A stretch of DNA of 45,795 bases from an uncultured Lysobacterales bacterium (GTDB taxonomy: Bacteria; Pseudomonadota; Gammaproteobacteria; Xanthomonadales; SZUA-36): positions 1 through 45,795 of the forward strand of contig CALBDB010000173.1 in the NCBI GenBank assembly GCA_937927755.1, given 5' to 3'. A model generated the notes under the pieces. That model was given only the letters and a program-made list of their open reading frames with translations, ran no database searches and had not been told where the DNA came from. Of the stretch, positions 33,778 through 44,755 are shown piece by piece. Each line of letters starts with the position of its first letter. Position 1 is the first letter of the stretch. A program made the position numbers and the translations under genes.

Positions 33778-35016
33778 TCAAGCTACCCTGGATCCAGGGA
33801 GTAGTGATTTAACCTGCTCATCAATTTGTTCATCCTCGGCTCTCGGAAAAATCGGCAGGTAGTGCACCGCGAGAAAGAAAACGACGGTGCCACCCGTGAT
33901 AAATGCGAGTGACAATGCGATTTCCATCCAGGTCGGGATGTAATGGAGATGATCGCTAACATCCATTCCAATCCAACTAACATTGACCCGGTTGAGCACA
34001 ATGCCCGCCATAACAAGAAATGCGGCTGTCAGCAATCCTCTTGGCAGCAGCCTGAACTTTCTGATGGATAACAATATGGCGGGTAATGCAACGCAACCCA
34101 TCATTTCCACCAGGAACAGGCGGCTCTGCAGACTGCCCTCAAAAACCATTTCCAGGTGTCCGCGTGCGGTGAGGTCGGCCATTTTCATAGCCAGGTAAAT
34201 AAACAGGATGATGCCGGCGGCCCTTCCGAGGTCTCTCATCAGCATGGATTCGAGGCCGCGTCTGAGAATCTTGGCTGAGAAGTACGATTCCACGATTATC
34301 ACGCACATGCCTGCAGCCACGGCGGAGATCAGGAAAAATACAGGTAACAGCGGCGAGTACCACAAGGGGTAAAGTTTTTCCGGAACGATCAGGTACAGGG
34401 AACCCAGTGAAGACTGGTGCATGGTGGAGAGAATCACACCGGCAATCACAACCGGAATAGTGGTCGTTTTGACCAGTTTTAACAACCTGGTTAAACCCAG
34501 GCGCTCAAGTAAAGGCGGGCTGGTTTCGATGGCTAGCACTGTTGAGTAAAGTATCACGCACCAGGTTACTTCGAACATGATGGAATGGTGCTGCCACATG
34601 ACCAGCGGATGCCACCAGCTCAATGGACGCCCGATGTCAATAAAGAGTGCCACCGCGACCAGCATGTAGCCCAGAAATGCCGTGAGTATGGTCGGTCTGA
34701 GAATGGGTTCAAAACGCTCGATGCGAAATATATGTACCGTGGCTGCGATGACAAAACCACCGGCAGCCAGGGCGACGCCGGCGAACACATCTGCGCCGAT
34801 CCACAGACCCCATGGGGCCGCGTCGTTCATCCCCGTTACCGCACCGAGACCTTCGGAAAACCGCCTGATCAGCGTCCACAGGGCCGAAACCCAGATACAA
34901 AGAACGGTGATGGCCGTGACCGGCCGCAGGAATCGTGGTCTTTTATCGTAGACCAGGCATAAGGCCACCCAGGTCAAAATAGCCAGGCACACGAGTATGA
35001 AAATCCAGCCGTTCAT
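33778..35016 (-). CDS. NrfD/HybB-type quinone-interacting membrane subunit (module 1)
   Basis: A 412-residue integral membrane protein with about ten helices, of the NrfD/PsrC/HybB superfamily. Its start is typical (MNGWIFILVCLAILTWVALC), with NDAAPWGLWIGADVFAGVALAAGG, which holds the conserved PWGLWIG block, and DIGRPLSWWHP. In known complexes this subunit binds quinol and passes electrons to the ferredoxin-like partner. It overlaps the ferredoxin gene by 4 bp (ATGA). It ends with a perfect 14-bp palindrome (CCCTGGATCCAGGG, 33786-33799). It is the last gene of a cytochrome-ferredoxin-NrfD cassette with no molybdopterin subunit. Confidence 0.9.
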   Translation of the reverse strand: MNGWIFILVCLAILTWVALCLVYDKRPRFLRPVTAITVLCIWVSALWTLIRRFSEGLGAVTGMNDAAPWGLWIGADVFAGVALAAGGFVIAATVHIFRIERFEPILRPTILTAFLGYMLVAVALFIDIGRPLSWWHPLVMWQHHSIMFEVTWCVILYSTVLAIETSPPLLERLGLTRLLKLVKTTTIPVVIAGVILSTMHQSSLGSLYLIVPEKLYPLWYSPLLPVFFLISAVAAGMCVIIVESYFSAKILRRGLESMLMRDLGRAAGIILFIYLAMKMADLTARGHLEMVFEGSLQSRLFLVEMMGCVALPAILLSIRKFRLLPRGLLTAAFLVMAGIVLNRVNVSWIGMDVSDHLHYIPTWMEIALSLAFITGGTVVFFLAVHYLPIFPRAEDEQIDEQVKSLLPGSRVA

Positions 35017-35960
35017 TCGGAGTCCTCCTGGTTTTCGGAAGCATCTTGCCGTTCGGCAGCTTCCCGCCTGTTGAGACTCCAGGCCACTGTTCCGAAGAGA
35101 CCAGCCATGGCTCCCGCCATGATGGGAATCTTGGACAGCACCTCCCAGGTCAGCGGCGGCATAGGTGTTGTTTCCACATTGGATTTGAACCCGATGTTTT
35201 CAAAAGGAACGTCAGAGAGGTAGAGCCAGGCTGTTCCGCCGGCCTCGTGCTCGCCATAAATGTGGTCTATGTAACGTTCCGGCTGTGTTTTGATGCGAGC
35301 CCGGGCCTCGAACAGCAGGGAATCACGCCGGCCAAATTTCAACGCGCCGGTTGGGCAGGACTCGGCGCAGGCCGGAAGCCGCCCTTCCGCGAGCCGTGTG
35401 TGGGCGCACATCTGGCATTTTCCAATGACCGCAAACATGCCACCTTCCCATTCGAACTTGGGGACATCAAACGGACAGGCCATTATGCAATAACGACAGC
35501 CAATGCAACGGTCTGCACTGTAGAGGATTGGCCCAAGTTCGGACTTGGTCATTGCCCCGACCGGGCATACTGACACACAGGTGGGTTCCAGGCACTGCAT
35601 GCATTGAGTCTTGATATTACGGGTGACCTCGTTGCCATCTGTGTCGCAGCCGGTCGCCGGGTTGACGACAGTCCACTGGTCAAAGCGCAGTTCCTCCGGG
35701 TCCCAGGAGCCGGGGAAATCCGCAGTTAAATCAGTGTTGTCCGGCAAGTCATTTGCCTGCTTGCATGCCCGCATACATTGCCGGCAACCGATGCATCGTG
35801 TTACATCAACCAACACGGAAGGGGTTTGTGCGTAACTGGGTACATGTGCATTCACGCTGGTAGGTGAAAGGACGGCCAGGCCTGTTCCGCCTGCCAGGCC
35901 CTGCAGGAACCGTCTGCGGTTAAACTCGTGCGTTTCGGTTTTGTGCTGGTTTTTTTTCAT
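35013..35960 (-). CDS. Tat-exported four-cluster ferredoxin subunit, HybA-like (module 1)
   Basis: A 315-residue periplasmic iron-sulfur protein. A Tat signal (FNRRRFLQGLAGGTGLAVLS) is followed by four cysteine clusters for 4Fe-4S centres: CIGCRQCMRAC, CMQCLEPTCVSVC, CIGCRYCIMAC and CQMC with the later CAESC. A C-terminal transmembrane helix (IPIMAGAMAGLFGTVAW) anchors it. This is the HybA/HmcB/DsrO layout that bridges an NrfD-type quinone subunit and a periplasmic partner. It overlaps both neighbours by 4 bp (ATGA), so cytochrome, ferredoxin and NrfD are tightly coupled. Confidence 0.92.
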   Translation of the reverse strand: MKKNQHKTETHEFNRRRFLQGLAGGTGLAVLSPTSVNAHVPSYAQTPSVLVDVTRCIGCRQCMRACKQANDLPDNTDLTADFPGSWDPEELRFDQWTVVNPATGCDTDGNEVTRNIKTQCMQCLEPTCVSVCPVGAMTKSELGPILYSADRCIGCRYCIMACPFDVPKFEWEGGMFAVIGKCQMCAHTRLAEGRLPACAESCPTGALKFGRRDSLLFEARARIKTQPERYIDHIYGEHEAGGTAWLYLSDVPFENIGFKSNVETTPMPPLTWEVLSKIPIMAGAMAGLFGTVAWSLNRREAAERQDASENQEDSE

Positions 35961-36901
35961 TTTCTTTTCATCTTGTCAAAGACATACCAGCCAAACATCC
36001 AGCCGAGCAGTAAGCCAACCAGCAGGCCCAGAACCGAAACAGTCCATAGTTTCTTGCGGGCACTGTCCAGCATCCAGGTTAAAGTCCGTACTTCTTCATA
36101 CAGTTCCAGCGCAGTCTTGCCACCGGTCAGGTATTGACCCTTGGTAGCCTCCATTAGCTGCTCACGCATTTCAGGTAGCTGGGCACTGGAGTGCACCATG
36201 TCAGCGTGGCAGCGGCCACAGACTTCGGTGCCCACGTGAAGGTTGTGGCCGGGCGCGCCAGCACCCTCGATGACATTCTCGGGTTCGACGGATACCGGCA
36301 TATGACAACTATTGCAATGCAGCCCTTCCAGTTGGTGCGTTGCGTGTGCGAAGTCCTCGAGACGCTGGGAGTGGCAGGCGCCACAGAGCAGGTCACCGCC
36401 CTTTGAACGCATGGTCTGGGCATGGACCCCGTGACAGTCAAAGCAACGGATGTCATTCTGGTTATGCCGGCTTAGTTGCCATTCCTGGTAGGTTTTCTTG
36501 TGGCAGTCCCGGCATACTTCCGACGTAATGGGCAGGGGCATTTCAGCGTCTTGCTTGGTGTGCCCTTTGCTCATGATGCCGTGGCAGGATTCGCAGGTGA
36601 CGCCGGGGTGTGAAAAGGTCCCAGCCTCGACGTCCGCACCGGTGGCGTGGCATTCAAGACAGGAGAAATCGCTGCCCAGTTCTTTCCAGATTTCCTGGAA
36701 ACCATTGGAAAAAGCCCGGGCATGTGGTGATTCCTTCCACTGCTCATACTCGTCCTTATGGCACATACGACATTTTCGGGATCCCTCATAGTTAGCTGCT
36801 TGATCAGTTGCCTGGTCAGTTGTCTGGTCAGCTGCCTGGGCAACAGAAACAATCAACAGGAGGAACACGAAACACAGGGCTTTCTTCGTTGTTGAGATCA
36901 T
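35957..36901 (-). CDS. Membrane-anchored octaheme cytochrome c (module 1)
   Basis: A secreted c-type cytochrome with eight CXXCH sites, near residues 44, 81, 103, 130, 153, 173, 196 and 228 (CRMCH, CLECH, CESCH, CRDCH, CFDCH, CGACH, CNSCH, CGRCH). A signal peptide (about 1-24) is followed by a short repeat-like DQTTDQATDQAAN stretch. One C-terminal helix (VLGLLVGLLLGWMFGWYVF) anchors it with a basic tail. The first hemes resemble the cytochrome c554/NrfH-type WKESPHARAF pattern. I chose the ATG at 36901 because AGGAT lies at the right distance; one at 36907 is possible. An FNR-like box lies about 90 bp upstream. Confidence 0.9.
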   Translation of the reverse strand: MISTTKKALCFVFLLLIVSVAQAADQTTDQATDQAANYEGSRKCRMCHKDEYEQWKESPHARAFSNGFQEIWKELGSDFSCLECHATGADVEAGTFSHPGVTCESCHGIMSKGHTKQDAEMPLPITSEVCRDCHKKTYQEWQLSRHNQNDIRCFDCHGVHAQTMRSKGGDLLCGACHSQRLEDFAHATHQLEGLHCNSCHMPVSVEPENVIEGAGAPGHNLHVGTEVCGRCHADMVHSSAQLPEMREQLMEATKGQYLTGGKTALELYEEVRTLTWMLDSARKKLWTVSVLGLLVGLLLGWMFGWYVFDKMKRK

Positions 36902-36986
36902 CACCATATCCTTTCAGGAGGCCCGCCAGGCGGCGGATTTATCTGATAACTTATGTTCAGATTACTCCTGCGAATGGAGGGGGTAA

Positions 36987-37126: not shown

Positions 37127-37915
37127 TTATAAACTCAGCCACTGTAAATCGCTTTTTGGATTCGTGGGTAAAACCCGGTATAACCAGCCCCTGAAATAGG
37201 GATCCTTTTCGACCAGCGAGGGATTTGAACTGGCGTCGTCGTTGACCTCGATAACCTGTCCGCTCAGGGGGCACATGATTTCATGCGTCAACCCATCCAG
37301 CGTAGTGGCCTGGCCACAGGGTATCCCTTGCAGCAACTCGTCACCGGTGGTTGCCAGCTCGAACTCCCGGATCCCATCGATCGATTTCATGAACAGGTCA
37401 CTGACGCCGATTCTTGCCGTGCCCTCGTCTTCCATGAGTGCCCAGCTTATATGACCGAGCCTGTAATAATTTGCGGGGGAGGGAACGTAGCTCATGGCGC
37501 GGCTGTGCTCCAGACCGGCCGAGTCGGCCTCCTCCAGCAAGGTGCTGCAACGCAGGCTGCAATTGACGATCGCTAACAATTCATCGGCAGTGAACGGCTT
37601 TGGAATATAGGCGATGGCGCCTGTTGAAGTCAGGCTTTTAACGGCGTTTTCCACGGTGGAATAGCCGGTCATCATGATAACGGGGGTATGAATGCCCCTG
37701 CGAACCAGTTCTTCCAGGAATTGGAAGCCGTTCAGTTCGGGCATCATGATGTCACAGAGCATCAGGCGAAACTCATTGTTTTCCAGTTGTTTTAGGGCGT
37801 CGGCGGCGTGTTCTGCAGTCGCTACCATCATCCCCTCCGAGCCGCAGATTTTCGCCACGGCCTGGGTCACTGTATGTTCATCGTCAATGACGAGGATGTC
37901 CTGTTTCTGGTTCAT
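37127..37915 (-). CDS. Response regulator: receiver domain fused to a GcvH-like domain without lipoyl lysine
   Basis: A 262-residue cytosolic protein. The N-terminal receiver domain (about 5-122) has all key residues: Asp11/Asp12 (VIDDEH), phosphoacceptor Asp55 (LCDIMMPELNG), Thr83 and Lys106 (YIPKPF). The C-terminal part (about 155-252) aligns with glycine-cleavage H protein: HISWALMEDEGTARIGVSD, then CPLSGQVIEVND and EKDPYFRGWLYRV. At the place of the lipoylated Lys the sequence reads LDGLTHE, so Asp207/Gly208 replace it and lipoylation there is impossible. No DNA-binding domain is present. The start overlaps the kinase stop by 4 bp (ATGA), so kinase and regulator are made together. Confidence 0.88.
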   Translation of the reverse strand: MNQKQDILVIDDEHTVTQAVAKICGSEGMMVATAEHAADALKQLENNEFRLMLCDIMMPELNGFQFLEELVRRGIHTPVIMMTGYSTVENAVKSLTSTGAIAYIPKPFTADELLAIVNCSLRCSTLLEEADSAGLEHSRAMSYVPSPANYYRLGHISWALMEDEGTARIGVSDLFMKSIDGIREFELATTGDELLQGIPCGQATTLDGLTHEIMCPLSGQVIEVNDDASSNPSLVEKDPYFRGWLYRVLPTNPKSDLQWLSL

Positions 37916-39780
37916 ATTCCCACCGGAATTCTGATAGTAAATGTGGTTCCAACGTCAACTTCACTGTCTACCACGATGGTCCCGTTGTGGTTATCCACGA
38001 TTCCCCAGGTAACCGCCAGGCCGAGACCGGTGCCCTTCTGGCCCTTGGTTGACATGAAAGGTTCGAAGAGTTTCGGAAGTTGTGATTTGGGGATGCCACA
38101 ACCGTCATCCGTTACCTGGATCTCGACGTACTCGTCGTCCCAGGCGGAATCAGCCTGTTCCCAGCGATGCCAGCCACAACCACTTTGCAGGCAGCCTTGA
38201 ACGAGGCCCTTCAAGGGCACCTCGAATACATAAATCGGGGAGCCGCACTGCGGACAGGTTTCCCCCTCTGCGATCAGCGAGGCCGAGCAATCCGGGCACA
38301 TCAGGTCGACATCCTCTTTCAAATCCGGCATGTCACCCAACTGGTGCCCGCTTGAGCCATACATGGGATCCAGATGGATAAGCCCGGTTTGTTTGCCCTT
38401 GCGGAATCGCATACTGATGGCCGGTTTGCCATCGACCTGAACTTTACGGTCAACCAGGTCATGTCGTTTCCGGCACAGTGCGCGCTTGATCTGGAGTGTA
38501 CCTGCGGGACCAAGGCTGATCACTTTGCTGGAAACCTTGATGGTGCCACCACCATCCCCGATGGCATCGCAGGCATTGACCAACAGGTTGATGAAAACCT
38601 GCTGAATCTGGTTGGCGTCAACCGTCGCGCTGGGAAGCGCGTCGTCCAGGTCCATGACCAGTTCAACCTGGCGCATGGAAAGCTGGTTCTCGACTACGGT
38701 GGCGGCTCGGTGGATGATTTGGTTAATATCGGCCTTGCGTTTCTTGGGCACCGTTTGACGGGAGAAATCCAGCAGGCTCTTGACGATCTCACGGCAGCGG
38801 ATGGTCTCGGAAACAATGACCTTGAGGTCATCGTTCATTTCGGGGCTGCCTTCCGACCGTTTAAGCAGGTAACTGCTGTTGGTGAGCACGGCTGTCAGCG
38901 GGTTGTTGATTTCGTGCGCCACGCCGGCTGCCAACCGTCCCAGTGATGCAAGTTTGTCCGACTGGAACAACTGCAAACGCGCATCCGCCAGGTTATCAGT
39001 CATGCTGTTGAAAGACTTGCCCAGCATGCCAATTTCGTCCTCCCGCTTTACCTCGACCCGGTAATTCAGGTTGCCACCTGCAATCTCCCGTGTGGCTGTC
39101 AGCAGATCCCGGACGGGCCGGTCGATCCACCAACGCACCAGGAAGCCGATCATCACGCTCAGCACGATGATGGCGCTGATCGCCAGCATGGTGATGGCTA
39201 CCTGGCTTTGACGGATGGTTTCATCGACCTCGGTGAGCGGGATGGTAACGTCCAGCACACCCAGCACGGTTTGTGATTCCGGGTGTGCGTGACAATTCGC
39301 CGTCCAGCAGCTTTCTTCATTGTAAATGGGATTGATGATGCCCATTGTCCGTTGGGAGTCAGGTGCGTGGCGGAAAATGCGCACGTGTTCCTGCTTCTTG
39401 AGGTTTTTCAGCGGCTCGCCTGTCAGGTGGCAGCGGAAGCACGTGGCGGCCTCGATGGTGACCATTTTTCCGACAGAGGATAAATCCGACGAATAGATCA
39501 CCTCACCATCCTTGTTGAATACGTTGATAATTTCGATGGTTTCCTGGCTGCCGATGCGAAGGATGCCAGCCTGTATCCGGCTGCGGTCAGCGTGCATCAT
39601 GTCGTAGCGCATGTCCGACTTCAGGTGTTCACTAAACTCGGTCGCGTGCCGCTCCACTTCCGTGAGCAGTGTCCTGTTCTGGGATTGAATATTGAAGTAA
39701 GCAAAAATGGCGATCGCAATGAGGATCGTCAGCACCGCACCGAAGGTCAGTCTCAGGCCTATTTTGCTATTTAACAACAT
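37912..39780 (-). CDS. Sensor histidine kinase with c-heme periplasmic domain and a cysteine-rich insertion in the ATPase domain
   Basis: A 622-residue inner-membrane kinase. Helices at about 8-28 and 195-217 flank a periplasmic sensor carrying CFRCH (114-118, a c-type heme motif) and CWTANCH (158-164, a CX4CH variant). HAMP follows (about 218-270), then the H box VAHEINNPLTA with His289 and the ATPase domain: N box INLLVNACDAIGDG near 397-410, G1 VTDDGCGIP near 556 and G2 GTGLGL at 583. Between the N and G1 boxes sits an insert of about 130 residues (about 425-550) with CPDC (495, 498), CPQC (509, 512) and CLQSGC (530, 535), probably zinc ribbons. The receiver-GcvH regulator follows with a 4-bp overlap. 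Confidence 0.9.
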   Translation of the reverse strand: MLLNSKIGLRLTFGAVLTILIAIAIFAYFNIQSQNRTLLTEVERHATEFSEHLKSDMRYDMMHADRSRIQAGILRIGSQETIEIINVFNKDGEVIYSSDLSSVGKMVTIEAATCFRCHLTGEPLKNLKKQEHVRIFRHAPDSQRTMGIINPIYNEESCWTANCHAHPESQTVLGVLDVTIPLTEVDETIRQSQVAITMLAISAIIVLSVMIGFLVRWWIDRPVRDLLTATREIAGGNLNYRVEVKREDEIGMLGKSFNSMTDNLADARLQLFQSDKLASLGRLAAGVAHEINNPLTAVLTNSSYLLKRSEGSPEMNDDLKVIVSETIRCREIVKSLLDFSRQTVPKKRKADINQIIHRAATVVENQLSMRQVELVMDLDDALPSATVDANQIQQVFINLLVNACDAIGDGGGTIKVSSKVISLGPAGTLQIKRALCRKRHDLVDRKVQVDGKPAISMRFRKGKQTGLIHLDPMYGSSGHQLGDMPDLKEDVDLMCPDCSASLIAEGETCPQCGSPIYVFEVPLKGLVQGCLQSGCGWHRWEQADSAWDDEYVEIQVTDDGCGIPKSQLPKLFEPFMSTKGQKGTGLGLAVTWGIVDNHNGTIVVDSEVDVGTTFTIRIPVGI

Positions 39781-39962: not shown

Positions 39963-41162
39963 TTAATGATCTGCACTAAAAACAGGCATACGGGTAACAA
40001 ACCAGCGGAATACCCAGAGTTCAGAGAAAATCACCATGAACGTTACTACGAACTCTTGCCAGGTCGGGATATAGTGTACATCCGCATACCAGTTATAGCA
40101 GATCACGGAAACATTCATTCGGTTGAGTACGATGCCGATCAATGCCATGACGGCGGCAATCTTGATGATTCTCAAACTCCGGTGTTTGAAACCGAATGCA
40201 AACATCAATGCCGGAATCAAGACGAATCCGATCACCTCGACCAGGTACCACAGACCCCAACCATCAACGATCAAGTCCCATTGCCCGTCATGGATAAAAA
40301 GCAGCGCCTTGAAAAAGTAATAAACAAACATGGTAATGGCGGCGCCTTTTGCCAGTCCAAAGACGATGTCGTCAAAGTGGTCATGATGTTTCTCGGGAAT
40401 CAAGCGGCTGAACACCCTGTGGCTGACAGTCCCCTCGACAATAATCATGGCCAAACCTGCATAAATGCTGGAGACAAAAAACAGTATCGGGATGAACTCC
40501 GACCACCACAGTGGGTGAACTTTGGGTTTGGCCATCAGGAACAATGCGCCGAGACCTGATTGGTGCAGTATCGACAAGGTTATACCCAGGATGACGGTGC
40601 CCAGAGTCAGCTTCTTGAGAAATCTTTTTGCTTTTTCCAGGTGTAACCATTCCGCGATCACCGGTGAGAACTCGACGAATTCTGCAATCATGTAGAGCAG
40701 GAAATGCCAACAGATCAGGAACAACACGGAACTGAACCCGAAGGAGTTACCGATGTAGGGGTTCGGAGCGTTCCAGGGTCGTCCAATATCGAACAGCAGG
40801 GCGGCGCCATAGAATGAATAGGCGAGCAAACCGTTCAAAACGGTCGCACGTACAATGCCGTGGTACTTGTCGACGCCCATGACATAAACCACGAAGGTTA
40901 TGACATAGGCGCCACCGGCCAGGGCAACACCGGTTACCACGTCGAAACCCATCCAAAGACCCCAGGGAGTTTCCTGCGACAGGTTGGTTACCGATCCCAG
41001 GCCATGGATAAAGCGGTAAACCAAAATGCCCACACCGGTCAGTATCACCGGGATCGAAATGATGTTGAACGGTGTGAGCCAGGGACCGCGTGGCTTTAAC
41101 TCCTGGATCAGGAAGCTGAAGAAGTTGCCAAATGAATCGGTTATTGCGACATCCTTATTCAT
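39963..41162 (-). CDS. NrfD/HybB-type quinone-interacting membrane subunit (module 2, HmcC-like)
   Basis: A 399-residue integral membrane protein with about ten helices, of the NrfD/HybB superfamily. It carries the same conserved block as module 1 (ETPWGLWMGFDVVTGVALAGG), plus DIGRPWNAPNPY and the late LNRMNVSVICY. I chose the ATG at 41162 (MNKDVAITDSFGNF). It overlaps the ferredoxin stop (ATGAATAA) and has GAGG upstream. A longer frame reaches 41273 inside the ferredoxin gene and adds 37 unlikely residues. It is followed by the HmcD-like small gene after 22 bp. Confidence 0.9.
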   Translation of the reverse strand: MNKDVAITDSFGNFFSFLIQELKPRGPWLTPFNIISIPVILTGVGILVYRFIHGLGSVTNLSQETPWGLWMGFDVVTGVALAGGAYVITFVVYVMGVDKYHGIVRATVLNGLLAYSFYGAALLFDIGRPWNAPNPYIGNSFGFSSVLFLICWHFLLYMIAEFVEFSPVIAEWLHLEKAKRFLKKLTLGTVILGITLSILHQSGLGALFLMAKPKVHPLWWSEFIPILFFVSSIYAGLAMIIVEGTVSHRVFSRLIPEKHHDHFDDIVFGLAKGAAITMFVYYFFKALLFIHDGQWDLIVDGWGLWYLVEVIGFVLIPALMFAFGFKHRSLRIIKIAAVMALIGIVLNRMNVSVICYNWYADVHYIPTWQEFVVTFMVIFSELWVFRWFVTRMPVFSADH

Positions 41163-42057
41163 TTCTTGCGCCCTCTTTGTCAACATCAAACTCGAGAGTA
41201 AATTCACTCTCCGGGTCAGATCTGCCGGCATCCGCCAGCGCATTGATCCCCAGCAGAAAAGCCGGGACACCAAAGAGAATCATGGGTACGGCATAGAGAA
41301 ACTCTTTTGTGTATTCCGGGTAAGGTCGTTTGCCGAGGTCAGTTCTGAACCCTATCTGGTCAAAGGGTACGGCAGACAGGTAGATGTATCCGGTGCCGCC
41401 AACTTCGTGCTCGCCATAAATATGGTGCACGTATTTGTCCGGATAGCTGTAAATGCGGTGCCTGGCAATTTCAAGATTTTTCAGGCGGGACCCAAACATG
41501 AGCGCGTCCGTAGGACAGGCAGAGACACAGGCGGGTTTCTGGCCTTCCTCCAGGCGCTCGAAACACATGGTGCATTTCTGCAGCTTCGGGTTCCAATCGT
41601 TGTACTCGAACTTGGGCATGTCAAATGGACAGGAAACCATGCAGAAGCGGCAGCCGATACACTTGTTGCCCCGCCAGACTACTGGACCACCCTTCATTTG
41701 CTTCATGGCCTCTGTCGGGCATGCGGTCGCACAGGCAGCCTGGTAGCAGTGCATACACTGTTTCTTGACAAATACGTCGCCTTTTTCCGTTTCGAATTTA
41801 TTGACGACGGTGAATTGATTCTCACTGGTATTGCGGTGTGCCTCCAGCGCGCCGTCATTGAGAACATCAGGTACATGCATATCCCACGTTTCGCCGCAGG
41901 CAACTTCACATGCCCGGCAACCGATGCAACGGGTGGTGTCCACCAGAATGCCGACAAACTCTTCCGGGTCGTGTTGTTCCTGGGCGCGTGCCTTGTTGCA
42001 TGTCAACGCGGTTCCACCAACAACCAATGATGTTTTTAGAAAACCTCGTCTATCCAT
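41155..42057 (-). CDS. Tat-exported four-cluster ferredoxin subunit, HmcB/HybA-like (module 2)
   Basis: A 300-residue periplasmic iron-sulfur protein. The Tat motif is at the very start (MDRRGFLKTSLVVGGTAL). Four 4Fe-4S cluster motifs follow: CIGCRACEVAC, CMHCYQAACATAC, CIGCRFCMVSC and CTMC with CVSAC. A C-terminal helix (AVPMILFGVPAFLLGI) is followed by a charged tail. It is a paralogue of the module 1 ferredoxin in layout. AAGGAG stands upstream of the ATG. Between it and the cytochrome gene lies a hairpin that may affect relative expression. Confidence 0.92.
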   Translation of the reverse strand: MDRRGFLKTSLVVGGTALTCNKARAQEQHDPEEFVGILVDTTRCIGCRACEVACGETWDMHVPDVLNDGALEAHRNTSENQFTVVNKFETEKGDVFVKKQCMHCYQAACATACPTEAMKQMKGGPVVWRGNKCIGCRFCMVSCPFDMPKFEYNDWNPKLQKCTMCFERLEEGQKPACVSACPTDALMFGSRLKNLEIARHRIYSYPDKYVHHIYGEHEVGGTGYIYLSAVPFDQIGFRTDLGKRPYPEYTKEFLYAVPMILFGVPAFLLGINALADAGRSDPESEFTLEFDVDKEGARNE

Positions 42058-42121: not shown

Positions 42122-43072
42122 CTACTTTTCTTCCTTTACATGACAGTCAACACAACCCTGGCTTGCCTCAACACCGGTCCTGGTGTCATGGCATTTCCAG
42201 CAACTTTTGTGGACAACCACTTTGGAACTGAGTGTTTCATCCGCGATATTGTCCTGGTCCGTGTGATGACACTCGCCACACTGGTAGTAAACCTGGTCGG
42301 ACGCTGAGTCCGGGTTGTGGCAGGCCTGGCAATTTATCCAGGAAGACGCCAGGTAGTCCGGATGAGGGGTGTCCAGTTCAACGGCATGAATCTGGTGGTG
42401 ACATTCCACGCATTCCATCTCGACGCCCGTGACATGGAAATCGTGTGGGAAAATCACATATCCGACTGAAGATTCAATCAGGATTTCCTGCAGACTGCCG
42501 GCTTCGCCCAAGGCCGGGCTGTCGTCACTTTCCCCTGCAGTTTCAACGGGTACCGCGTGTGCGATGTCCAACCAGCTTGCTTCGAAATCAAACCCCTTGA
42601 AGGTGGGGCTTTCTTCGTTGTGGCACTTCCTGCAGCCGGTGTTCATTATCAATCCAGCTTCCCTGGCAGCCTCGGGATCAATCATGACTTTCCTGGATTT
42701 ATAATCTGAACCGGGGCCGTGGCAAGCTTCACAGCCCACACCTTCGTTATCTGTATAGTTCGCCTTTTCGTGTATCACTGCACCCTCGCCAAGACTGACC
42801 CTGGTGGCGTGACATTTCAGGCAGGCAGTTTCCTGCTGCGGATCACCAAGCCCCCTGTCAGCGGCGATTTTTTGTGATTCAGCCGATGCCAGGGTCTCGA
42901 ATGCCCTGGCATGTCGGGACTCGGCCCAGATTTTCCATTGGTCGCCGGTTTTGGCCTTGTGACAGGTCTTGCACTTTGGTGCACCGATAATCTCGGGTGA
43001 AGCGGCCGCCAGTTGTGTCATGCAGAACATCAGGCCCGCAAGCAAGACCAGAAAAACATGAAATTTACGCAT
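42122..43072 (-). CDS. Nonaheme cytochrome c with c554-like and c3-like halves (module 2)
   Basis: A secreted 316-residue cytochrome with nine CXXCH sites, starting at residues 34, 84, 114, 147, 221, 248, 265, 291 and 307. The signal peptide ends near residue 24. The first four hemes follow a cytochrome c554 pattern (CKTCHKAKTGDQWKIWAES, CLKCHATRVS, GVGCEACHGPGSDYKS, CRKCHNEESP). The last five resemble a cytochrome c3/c7 unit (FPHDFHVTGVEMECVECHH onward), and a linker of about 65 residues separates the two. No C-terminal membrane anchor is seen, unlike module 1. In position it corresponds to HmcA, which is much larger (16 hemes) in Desulfovibrio. GAGG lies upstream of the ATG. Confidence 0.92.
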   Translation of the reverse strand: MRKFHVFLVLLAGLMFCMTQLAAASPEIIGAPKCKTCHKAKTGDQWKIWAESRHARAFETLASAESQKIAADRGLGDPQQETACLKCHATRVSLGEGAVIHEKANYTDNEGVGCEACHGPGSDYKSRKVMIDPEAAREAGLIMNTGCRKCHNEESPTFKGFDFEASWLDIAHAVPVETAGESDDSPALGEAGSLQEILIESSVGYVIFPHDFHVTGVEMECVECHHQIHAVELDTPHPDYLASSWINCQACHNPDSASDQVYYQCGECHHTDQDNIADETLSSKVVVHKSCWKCHDTRTGVEASQGCVDCHVKEEK

Positions 43073-43090: not shown

Positions 43091-43123
43091 TATCTAAGAA
43101 AGACCCTGCTTCAGGCAGGGTCT
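43091..43123 (-). terminator. Hairpin over the stop codon of the first regulator gene; possible attenuating terminator
   Basis: A perfect 9-bp stem (AGACCCTGC/GCAGGGTCT, 43101-43109 with 43115-43123) has a 5-base loop that contains most of the TGA stop codon. On the minus strand it is followed by TTCTT. It lies between the receiver-GcvH regulator gene and the cytochrome gene, so it could let only part of the transcripts through. Confidence 0.55.
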
Positions 43124-44280
43124 TTTGCTTGCCGGAATGGTTTGGTAAAACTGTCCAGCAACTCTACGTATTGCGCTGGTGAGAGCTGCTGCCCTTCTTC
43201 TATGTGATCACCGGTGTCCTGCTTTGTGAACTCCCCGGCGAGTTTGTGGAACCGATCGATTTCCTGCTGGTACCAATCCAGCGAGTCCCGGCCGATCTTC
43301 AGTGCAGGCAACTCCCCGGCCAGATTTGAAGGTTCGATGCAACACATCCAGCTCAGTTCAAATGGCTTGACAGCCAGCCATTCGGGGTGTTCGGCGTGTT
43401 CGGTGTTAACGGCAATGACATTGCCGCTGAATGGGGCCGGGATAGCCAGGTTGTAATCTCCGTAGCTGAGCGAAAACAGGGTATCGCCCTTATTGACCTT
43501 CTGGGCAAGGCCGGGCAGCTCAACCTGGTCCACCTTGTCAAATACCTTTCTGACCAGATCATCCAGGCCAACCTGTACAGCGCCGTTCGACAGGATCTTG
43601 GCCCAGGCGTGCTGCGGGGAGATAAAGATACCCGCGGGAACATTGATCTCGAATTTTGAATCGGATTCGCTGGTTCCCGGTTTGACCAGGCGGATCTTGT
43701 GCCGCTTGTTTTTTTCCAGGTTTGCCTGGCGTTTGATCAGCGCCTTGTTGACGAAGGCCAGCAACTCATCTTCGGTAAATGGTTTCTCTATATAGGCCAT
43801 GGCGCCGAAACTAACCGTTTCCACGGCGGTCTCGATCGATGCGTAACCGGTAATGACGATGACATCGATATCAGGACGAAGATGCTTGACGGCCTTGGTG
43901 ACTTCGACACCGTCCATTTCAGGCATTTTGAGATCGGTGAAGACAAAATCGTAGTCATTTTTGCGGATCAGACCCAGTGCCTCGGAACCCTTTTCCACGG
44001 TATCGATGGCATAGCCTGCGAGCACCAGTATCTTGCGAAAACTGCTGAGCACGATTTCTTCATCGTCCACGGCCAGTATGCGGGCTTTAGGGTTGTCCAG
44101 TTCTACACGTTTCAGCGAAGGGGCTTCTTCGCTCACATCGAGTTTCAAGCCGATATCCAATGCCTGTTCTCTTTCGGCCAATAACCGTGCTTCGCGCGCT
44201 CTTTTGATCAGCATGCGGAGCGCGAGATCAACCAGGATAAAAACAACGATTGTGGTGACAACAATTAAGGCAACAATCAT
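43111..44280 (-). CDS. Membrane-anchored response regulator: receiver domain fused to a GcvH-like domain
   Basis: A 389-residue protein beginning with a membrane helix (MIVALIVVTTIVVFILVDLAL), followed by a charged linker and a receiver domain (about 66-182) with phosphoacceptor Asp116 (FTDLKMPEMDG), the acidic pair in AVDDEE and Lys166 (YIEKPF). The next part (about 216-315) resembles glycine-cleavage H protein (FISPQHAWAKILSNGAVQVG, APFSGNVIAVN). The position of the lipoylated Lys is Asp/Tyr in SYGDYNLAIPA, so no lipoylation is expected there. A 70-residue helical tail follows. I chose the ATG at 44280, which AGAGG precedes; a TTG at 44304 would add eight residues. It has the same architecture as the second regulator plus the membrane anchor. 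Confidence 0.88.
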   Translation of the reverse strand: MIVALIVVTTIVVFILVDLALRMLIKRAREARLLAEREQALDIGLKLDVSEEAPSLKRVELDNPKARILAVDDEEIVLSSFRKILVLAGYAIDTVEKGSEALGLIRKNDYDFVFTDLKMPEMDGVEVTKAVKHLRPDIDVIVITGYASIETAVETVSFGAMAYIEKPFTEDELLAFVNKALIKRQANLEKNKRHKIRLVKPGTSESDSKFEINVPAGIFISPQHAWAKILSNGAVQVGLDDLVRKVFDKVDQVELPGLAQKVNKGDTLFSLSYGDYNLAIPAPFSGNVIAVNTEHAEHPEWLAVKPFELSWMCCIEPSNLAGELPALKIGRDSLDWYQQEIDRFHKLAGEFTKQDTGDHIEEGQQLSPAQYVELLDSFTKPFRQAKDPA

Positions 44281-44755
44281 TTTACCAATCCTCTGAAATG
44301 ACAAAATCAGCTGGATTTGTAATGACAGGTCCGGGTGTGTGTTTCGCTGCTATGGTTCCAGCGGTCGCGGTCCGGTTTGATTTGTGTCCAAGGGCCGTAT
44401 CACCGGTACCGAATCAAGTCAGCAGTGCACTCATTCCTTGTTATTACAAATCGCCTGAAATTTAATTCAAGCAATTTCCCACACGCCTGGTTACCGACCG
44501 TGCGAACAGTATATGACTGGTATTTTGTCCGGCTGAGCGGACTTTCAATTGACTATCGGTTGCATGTATCACATGGGGCTCCAGGCGCATGAACCTAAAG
44601 AGAGTAAAGCAAATAAATCTGCGGGTGATATTGATTTAGATCATCTAAATATCAGCAAAATTTAAAAACATACGTATCCGTATGGGTTACGTCTTTCGAG
44701 CGCTTGAAATGCACATTTTCCGGCCATCGAATTACGGCTCAGGAAGGCGGGACTG
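44281..44755. other. 475-bp non-coding region, long leader of the module 2 locus
   Basis: No convincing gene is present. A plus-strand frame at 44335-44592 shows no protein-like features. The region holds an FNR-like box (44631-44644), an inverted repeat overlapping it (ATTTAGA-TCA-TCTAAAT, 44634-44650) and a second inverted repeat (CATACG-TATC-CGTATG, 44669-44684). If the FNR-like box drives the minus-strand locus, the leader before the first start codon would be about 300 nt. Confidence 0.5.
44631..44644 (-). promoter_or_regulatory. FNR/Anr-like binding site upstream of the module 2 locus
   Basis: TTGAT-TTAG-ATCAT on the plus strand matches TTGAT-N4-ATCAA at 9 of 10 positions. If placed at -41.5 for minus-strand transcription, TTTACT (44608-44603) falls at the -10 position. 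No plus-strand gene follows nearby, so the minus-strand redox locus is its likeliest target. Confidence 0.5.

Follow-up and report, generated by a model that had tools for sequence, protein, structure and literature searches.

Response regulators are normally soluble; they have mostly been studied as gene switches, and most of them act on DNA. Membrane-bound transcription activators such as CadC exist, and regulators of the CheY type, together with some others, act on proteins. The GcvH-like LbpA proteins carry lipoate and are not known to possess a receiver or a membrane helix. In Desulfovibrio, Hmc contains an HmcB-HmcC-type pair and a multihaem cytochrome, and rrf1 and rrf2, regulators of hmc expression, are encoded next to hmc. 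The LbpA proteins are described as part of the sHdr sulfur-oxidation system, in which they serve a redox enzyme outside glycine cleavage (PMC6067878). Among the Geobacter sensors with c-type haem, GSU0935 and GSU0582 are presented as chemoreceptors, and GSU0591 and GSU0599 have two motifs (PMC8396549). The NrfCD pair of Melioribacter roseus is thought to feed multihaem cytochromes (PMC3534657), and a tail-anchored three-gene Fe-S/HybB-like module is reported to have no conserved pattern of flanking genes (PMC10924467).

The locus considered here lies in the window, the whole stretch of 45,795 nucleotides from an uncultured Lysobacterales bacterium that was analysed (GenBank assembly GCA_937927755.1, contig CALBDB010000173.1). 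All its genes discussed below are on the minus strand, and they form a run consisting of RR2, a multihaem cytochrome, an HmcB-like protein, an NrfD-like protein, a sensor kinase, RR1, and a second cytochrome/HmcB/NrfD set. RR2 (43111..44280), delimited by its open reading frame, Pfam and AlphaFold2, is a membrane-tethered receiver-GcvH response regulator of 389 aa. Its start codon is ATG, and a likely ribosome-binding site, AGAGG (44290..44294), was recognized by eye 9 bases 5' of it. Pfam found Response_reg (PF00072) at residues 68-177 (4.8e-29; 101.2 bits against a cut-off of 30.2) and GCV_H (PF01597) at residues 223-321 (9.7e-14; 51.8 bits against 22.2). The AlphaFold2 model (mean pLDDT 87.3, pTM 0.59) contained, in order, a single helix at residues 2-46, the receiver, the GcvH part, and two tail helices at residues 331-355 and 368-383. 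Profile and fold together rule out a chance match as the source of these domain calls. The preliminary description had stated that RR2 repeats the domain pair of another regulator and ends in a helical tail; indeed, Pfam found both Response_reg and GCV_H in RR1 as well, and the tail was modelled as two helices. The structure alignment (VIA-align) barely covered the membrane helix and the tail, so that their folds come from the model only.

Distinct frames in the family set numbered 83 for RR2 and 52 for RR1, the latter including the true GcvH (L001); 75 RR2 frames of 365-400 aa were kept for alignment, and 74 were left after the redundancy filter. The N-terminal membrane helix, placed by alignment and model at residues 2-25 (44206..44277), confirmed that RR2 is anchored to the membrane. 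A hydrophobic stretch of 19 residues (Kyte-Doolittle value of at least 1.9) preceded the receiver in all 101 distinct tethered-type relatives, while it occurred in none of 67 soluble receiver-GcvH proteins of the RR1 type and in 6 of 62 other receivers. By our own judgement, five of these six frames were truncated or broken, and the sixth was a degenerate member of the tethered family. All three totals refer to distinct frames, with near-identical frames counted apart. The N-terminal helix of the preliminary description was thus borne out, and its reservation that the true start might lie downstream of the hydrophobic segment did not hold, the segment being conserved in the relatives; a start-site artefact is ruled out by its presence in 101 of 101. 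Within the helix, Arg22 was invariant, and residue 18 was Asp in 66 of the 74 aligned relatives and Asn in the other 8. Lysine and arginine averaged 6.2 in the 15 residues after the helix and about 0.1 before residue 18. Judged from these positive charges, the topology should be N-out/C-in, with the receiver in the cytoplasm. The juxtamembrane linker that follows (residues 47-65; 44086..44142) was also conserved in the alignment, including Leu56, Lys57, and Arg58.

The receiver, defined by Pfam, fold and alignment, occupies residues 66-185 (43726..44085). Its phosphorylation pocket is intact as read from the sequence: Asp72, Asp73, the phospho-acceptor Asp116, Thr144, and Lys166 were present in RR2 of the window and in all 74 relatives. 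The receiver was also the best conserved part of the family, with a mean pairwise identity of 0.77, followed by the linker 47-65 (0.65), the GcvH part (0.48), and the helix (0.38); the receiver of the soluble partner RR1 reached 0.51. The GcvH (H-protein) fold, likewise defined by Pfam, fold and alignment, spans residues 212-340 (43261..43647) and superposed on the Escherichia coli apo-H-protein 3a7l at 1.6 Å over 128 residues (Z 19.6). The lipoyl lysine of the E. coli protein aligned without a gap with Asp275 (43456-43458) of RR2. The lack of lysine here had been noticed from the single sequence, and the family agrees: the position varies freely, with lysine in only 5 of 74 relatives (6 of 75 in the wider set). 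Since the lipoyl lysine is replaced and not conserved, RR2 is not counted as a working H-protein. The next position, 276, was Lys in 8 of 74 relatives and Arg, His, Lys, or Tyr in 59, and Cys313 was kept in 72. A separate true GcvH is encoded in the genome of the window; a 456-aa frame of the same genome (L004, contig C150) gave a further weak GcvH match of 24.3 bits over 43 positions.

According to the model and the alignment, the C-terminal tail (residues 341-389; 43114..43260) consists of the end of helix 331-355, a variable stretch, and helix 368-383. Phe382, part of a conserved aromatic motif, was found in 70 of 74 relatives. Pfam found no domain in the tail and no DNA-binding output domain anywhere in RR2, and the AlphaFold2 model contained no DNA-binding output domain either. 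None of the best 60 of 286 PDB matches extended beyond residue 334. A DNA-binding domain in the tail, which would have refuted the preliminary description, was therefore not found by Pfam, by the model, or among those best 60 of 286 PDB matches.

The genes downstream of RR2 encode a candidate respiratory module. A multihaem cytochrome c of the C554/C7 type (42122..43072; Pfam) is followed by an HmcB-like Fe-S protein with a twin-arginine start (41155..42057), for which HmcB was the best NCBIfam match under its cut-off, and by an NrfD/HmcC-like quinol-interacting membrane protein (39963..41273; Pfam and NCBIfam), whose frame opens with TTG and whose true start is perhaps further in. The second set contains a multihaem cytochrome c (35957..36907; Pfam), an HmcB-like Fe-S protein (35013..35960; Pfam and NCBIfam), and an NrfD/HmcC-like protein (33778..35016; Pfam and NCBIfam). 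HmcB and HmcC were the best NCBIfam matches of these proteins, with 308.8 and 283.8 bits against a cut-off of 420 for HmcB and 382.8 and 317.6 bits against 550 for HmcC, all below the cut-offs. Four NrfD proteins are encoded in the genome, two of them in the window. A twin-arginine motif stands at the start of both HmcB-like proteins (Pfam TAT_signal, 18.8 and 16 bits against a cut-off of 22.7), and both should face the periplasm.

Between the two sets stand the kinase and RR1. RR1 (37127..37915; Pfam) is a soluble receiver-GcvH response regulator of 262 aa. The sensor histidine kinase (37912..39780; 622 aa) has, by Pfam and model, a periplasmic PAS/Cache-like sensor, HAMP, HisKA, and HATPase. 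Its sensor carries two c-haem motifs identified from the sequence and its relatives, CxxCH at residues 114-118 (39427..39441) and CxxxxCH at residues 158-164 (39289..39309). Both were present in all 59 kinases examined, namely the frames of at least 380 bits and at least 480 aa, one of which (L104) lies outside an RR2 cassette. In the alignment of 54 of these sensors (two were too short, and three were removed by the redundancy or the unknown-letter filter), the six Cys and His residues of the motifs were invariant. The sensor probably binds c-type haem, as these motifs would suggest. The modelled sensor was PAS/Cache-like and its best fold match was the haem-free WalK domain; 3b42 (GSU0935) ranked third in Foldseek (E 4.9e-6), with a TM-score of only 0.41. 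The kinase also contained two zinc-ribbon-like CxxC pairs within its ATPase region, lying between residues 419 and 548 (38245-38298 in the window). Both pairs were found in 44 of 59 kinases, one pair in 2, and none in 13, so that a zinc ribbon is ruled out as a general, essential part of the kinase. A kinase-RR1 fusion in L074 was not accepted, as the 711-aa frame runs over the kinase gene in a different reading frame.

At E values of at most 1e-30, 16 of 121 near genomes gave matches, the window's own among them; some of these matches came through the receiver alone. RR2 frames of at least 240 bits were held by 68 of the 79 loci from named genomes; the remaining 11 (L099-L109) were weak matches, mostly via the receiver. 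The taxa represented were Gamma- and Betaproteobacteria, Ignavibacteria and other Bacteroidetes, Calditrichota, KSB1, Gemmatimonadetes, Acidobacteria, Elusimicrobia, and Krumholzibacteriia, mostly as metagenome-assembled genomes (MAGs). In the phylum of the Ignavibacterium genome that holds locus L047 (G121), the family profile matched 21 of 296 genomes at 1e-80, one match being degenerate. In KSB1, the phylum of G122, it matched 21 of 82 genomes at 1e-45, of which 17 had the tethered form and 4 only an untethered receiver-GcvH protein. A class-wide draw of 369 gammaproteobacterial genomes yielded a single match, the window's own. This patchy distribution in Gammaproteobacteria would fit lateral spread.

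The RR2 cassette recurs in several phyla, and two gene orders dominate. RR2 opens one of them, RR2-cytochrome-HmcB-NrfD-kinase-RR1, which may end in a second RR2, and closes the other, HmcB-NrfD-cytochrome-kinase-RR1-RR2, where the cytochrome was identified by reading. Of the loci in which RR2 was flanked by 6 kb or more on each side (34 in all), NrfD was found in 33, HmcB in 32, the kinase in 33, and RR1 in 24, on the same strand and within 6.5 kb; across all 76 RR2 loci, short contigs included, the corresponding numbers were 63, 61, 67, and 54. RR1 immediately preceded RR2 in 42 of the 76. Around the new hits in the phylum of G121, 19 of 20 regions contained the membrane segment, NrfD, HmcB, the two-motif kinase, and RR1 within 9 kb. 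The 16 KSB1 regions contained the membrane segment in all cases, NrfD in 14, HmcB in 12, the kinase in 15, and RR1 in 6, on the same strand. These further regions overlap the earlier 79 loci (3 of 20 in the first phylum and 9 of 16 in the second) and come from genomes found by the family profile; they thus test linkage rather than occurrence. NrfD was missing from the RR2 strand in L222, where RR2 is divergent from the kinase and RR1, and in L227, a contig of just 7.6 kb. In genomes with two RR2 copies, the second copy accompanied RR1, without another NrfD to itself in the stretch examined (e.g., L055).

Some features at the edges of these loci were recorded separately. An RR2-cytochrome fusion (L013/L036; L036:8881-10587) comes from one MAG, may be a real fusion or a joining error, and is kept out of the main evidence. 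In some Gamma- and Betaproteobacteria, another type of response regulator with C-terminal hydrophobic segments lies upstream of the cassette (L037:6157-6885; L042:8002-8637); it was rejected as part of the window's system, the window's genome giving matches to the receiver part only. On the downstream side of the cassette of Stygiobacter electus (L088:10226-16817), we observed an 816-aa multihaem cytochrome b, a C554 cytochrome, a likely outer-membrane barrel without a Pfam match, and more multihaem cytochromes, a gene set as in extracellular electron transfer.

In a few genomes RR2 was found apart from the kinase. The L047 genome has RR2-cytochrome-HmcB-NrfD, and a whole-genome search gave no kinase match at 1e-60, the kinases counted elsewhere scoring at least 380 bits. 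No kinase was found in the L051 genome either, a weak case since the locus begins at a contig edge. At L183 (genome G418), a degenerate RR2 (L183:745-1845) sits within an HmcB-NrfD-cytochrome operon, and the kinase and RR1 are absent between the cytochrome and RR2. The best kinase match in the whole of this genome was generic (88 bits), while the absence of RR1 refers to a 10-kb stretch. This RR2 shows Asp72Glu, Asp73Lys, and Asp116Gly, has Glu at residue 18, and has a drifted GcvH hairpin; it retains the helix, Arg22, the Leu-Lys-Arg linker, Trp311, Cys313, and Phe382. As its pocket is lost, the usual phosphorylation is not expected in this single genome.

Untethered relatives had different neighbours. 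In KSB1, untethered receiver-GcvH genes adjoin cytosolic [NiFe]-hydrogenase genes, by Pfam in L238 and similarly, by reading, in L237 and L239; in L240 such a gene is near genes of related hydrogenase subunits. The gene of the L238 protein (L238:7759-8853) also lies beside that of a Cache-domain kinase. In L107 an untethered receiver-GcvH gene lies beside NuoE/NuoF/NuoG-like genes; the run includes NuoF- and NuoG/formate-dehydrogenase-like genes and a receiver fused to a NuoE-type [2Fe-2S] thioredoxin-like domain (L107:9792-10739). Desulfoferrobacter has GcvH-plus-tail relatives without receiver or helix beside flavin oxidoreductase genes, the neighbours being identified by reading. Cys-rich GcvH-domain proteins, also without receiver or helix, were seen by flavin or HdrA-like oxidoreductase genes (L130:1111-2007; L133:997-1986), and the L130 protein has an RR2-like tail.

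Taken together, these results, with the recurrence of the arrangement in several phyla, suggest that RR2 switches a respiratory complex directly rather than genes. We consider it slightly more probable than its negation that RR2 is a tethered, non-DNA-binding response regulator whose docking on the adjacent HmcB-NrfD-cytochrome quinol:cytochrome oxidoreductase modulates that complex. The c-haem sensor of the kinase would read the redox state of periplasmic cytochromes, and the kinase would phosphorylate both soluble RR1 and tethered RR2. Phosphorylation would then alter the docking of the receiver-GcvH body and the C-terminal peptide of RR2 at the cytoplasmic surface of the NrfD complex; this docking in turn would change the electron flow or the assembly of the complex, switching it either on or off. 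The NrfD module is chosen as the target because RR2 stays beside it without the kinase (L047, L183), because the topology fits the enzyme, the untethered relatives adjoining genes of cytosolic enzymes, and because the RR2-NrfD linkage recurs in 33 of 34 loci and in the further regions. A membrane partner such as the NrfD or ferredoxin subunits, rather than DNA, had been proposed in the preliminary description. The NrfD part of that proposal agrees with the gene context and with the lack of a DNA-binding domain, and RR2 may bind NrfD directly; direct contact with the HmcB-like ferredoxin is unlikely, as the twin-arginine start of that protein would send it to the periplasm while the receiver would be cytoplasmic.

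Against the NrfD module as target stand the second RR2 copies that follow RR1, the fact that L183 is a lone genome, and L222, with no NrfD on the RR2 strand. Moreover, the kinase accompanies RR2 just as closely as NrfD does (33 of 34 loci each, within 6.5 kb), RR1 lies immediately 5' in 42 of 76, and the receiver-GcvH pair is common to RR1 and RR2, so that a purely signalling role is possible: RR2 would be a scaffold for the kinase and RR1 at the membrane, or a phosphate sink or relay, and the output would be RR1 or another regulator. We regard this as unlikely, considering that RR2 and the NrfD module coexist in the L047 genome without a kinase match at 1e-60 and that L183 keeps RR2 without operon kinase, RR1, or phospho-acceptor. 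The retention of RR2 without phospho-acceptor at L183, and its leading position in the cytochrome-HmcB-NrfD run of the window and of many loci, could also mean that RR2 assembles or places the complex instead of modulating its activity, with phosphorylation as a minor or lost input. To this we assign only a small probability, as a pocket invariant in 74 of 74 relatives and a receiver that is the best conserved part (0.77) point to a working switch. It is very improbable that the GcvH part has kept a carrier function, using a different residue for a lipoyl or other group, and that RR2 is a redox relay; the full H-protein fold and the Arg, His, Lys, or Tyr just after the lipoyl position in 59 of 74 relatives speak for it, but lysine is not conserved at or beside that position (5 of 74 at 275, 8 of 74 at 276), and Cys313 is conserved in 72 of 74. 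Finally, since response regulators mostly act on DNA and membrane-bound activators such as CadC exist, RR2 might be a membrane-bound transcription regulator with its DNA-binding part in the tail. This we think hardly credible, because no DNA-binding domain was detected by Pfam, among the best 60 of 286 PDB matches, or in the model, whose tail is a pair of helices separated by a variable stretch of low confidence.

A wider hypothesis can be put forward tentatively, and we hold it to be somewhat doubtful: receiver-GcvH proteins may form a general class of response regulators which dock directly on respiratory and redox enzymes and thereby control them, soluble for [NiFe]-hydrogenase and NuoEFG-type enzymes and tethered for NrfD. 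The cassette would then form a closed loop at the post-translational level: a kinase with two c-haem sites would read the redox state of periplasmic cytochromes, and this state would set quinol oxidation without transcription. With a conserved regulator fixed in the membrane and tied to a quinol:cytochrome complex, respiratory electron flow would be under direct phosphorylation control in organisms that use multihaem, and perhaps extracellular, electron transfer, and the H-protein fold would gain a lipoate-independent job.

No paper on a receiver-GcvH protein, tethered or not, was recognized in the open-licence literature searched by titles and abstract starts, and an exact-phrase search was also empty. 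The parts of RR2 are thus known, while their combination, a response regulator whose H-protein output is tethered and not lipoylated, was not met in the literature searched. Like the CheY-type regulators, RR2 has a receiver with an intact pocket and no DNA-binding domain, but it differs from them in its own membrane helix, its H-protein fold as output, and its tie to a respiratory module. It shares the fold of the glycine cleavage H-protein; however, the lipoyl lysine is replaced and not conserved, and the genome has a separate true GcvH. LbpA is comparable as a GcvH-like protein in the service of a redox enzyme that is not part of glycine cleavage, as far as described (PMC6067878), whereas RR2 has a receiver and a membrane helix and no conserved lipoyl lysine. 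The window's kinase resembles the described GSU0935, GSU0582, GSU0591, and GSU0599 in its periplasmic PAS-like domain with c-haem motifs, but in contrast to the chemoreceptors GSU0935 and GSU0582 it is a two-motif kinase paired with two receiver-GcvH proteins (PMC8396549). Unlike the tail-anchored Fe-S/HybB-like module, as far as its flanking genes are described (PMC10924467), the window's module is flanked by a two-component cassette. With Desulfovibrio Hmc it shares the HmcB-HmcC-type pair, the multihaem cytochrome, and adjoining regulator genes, although its proteins score below the HmcB and HmcC cut-offs.
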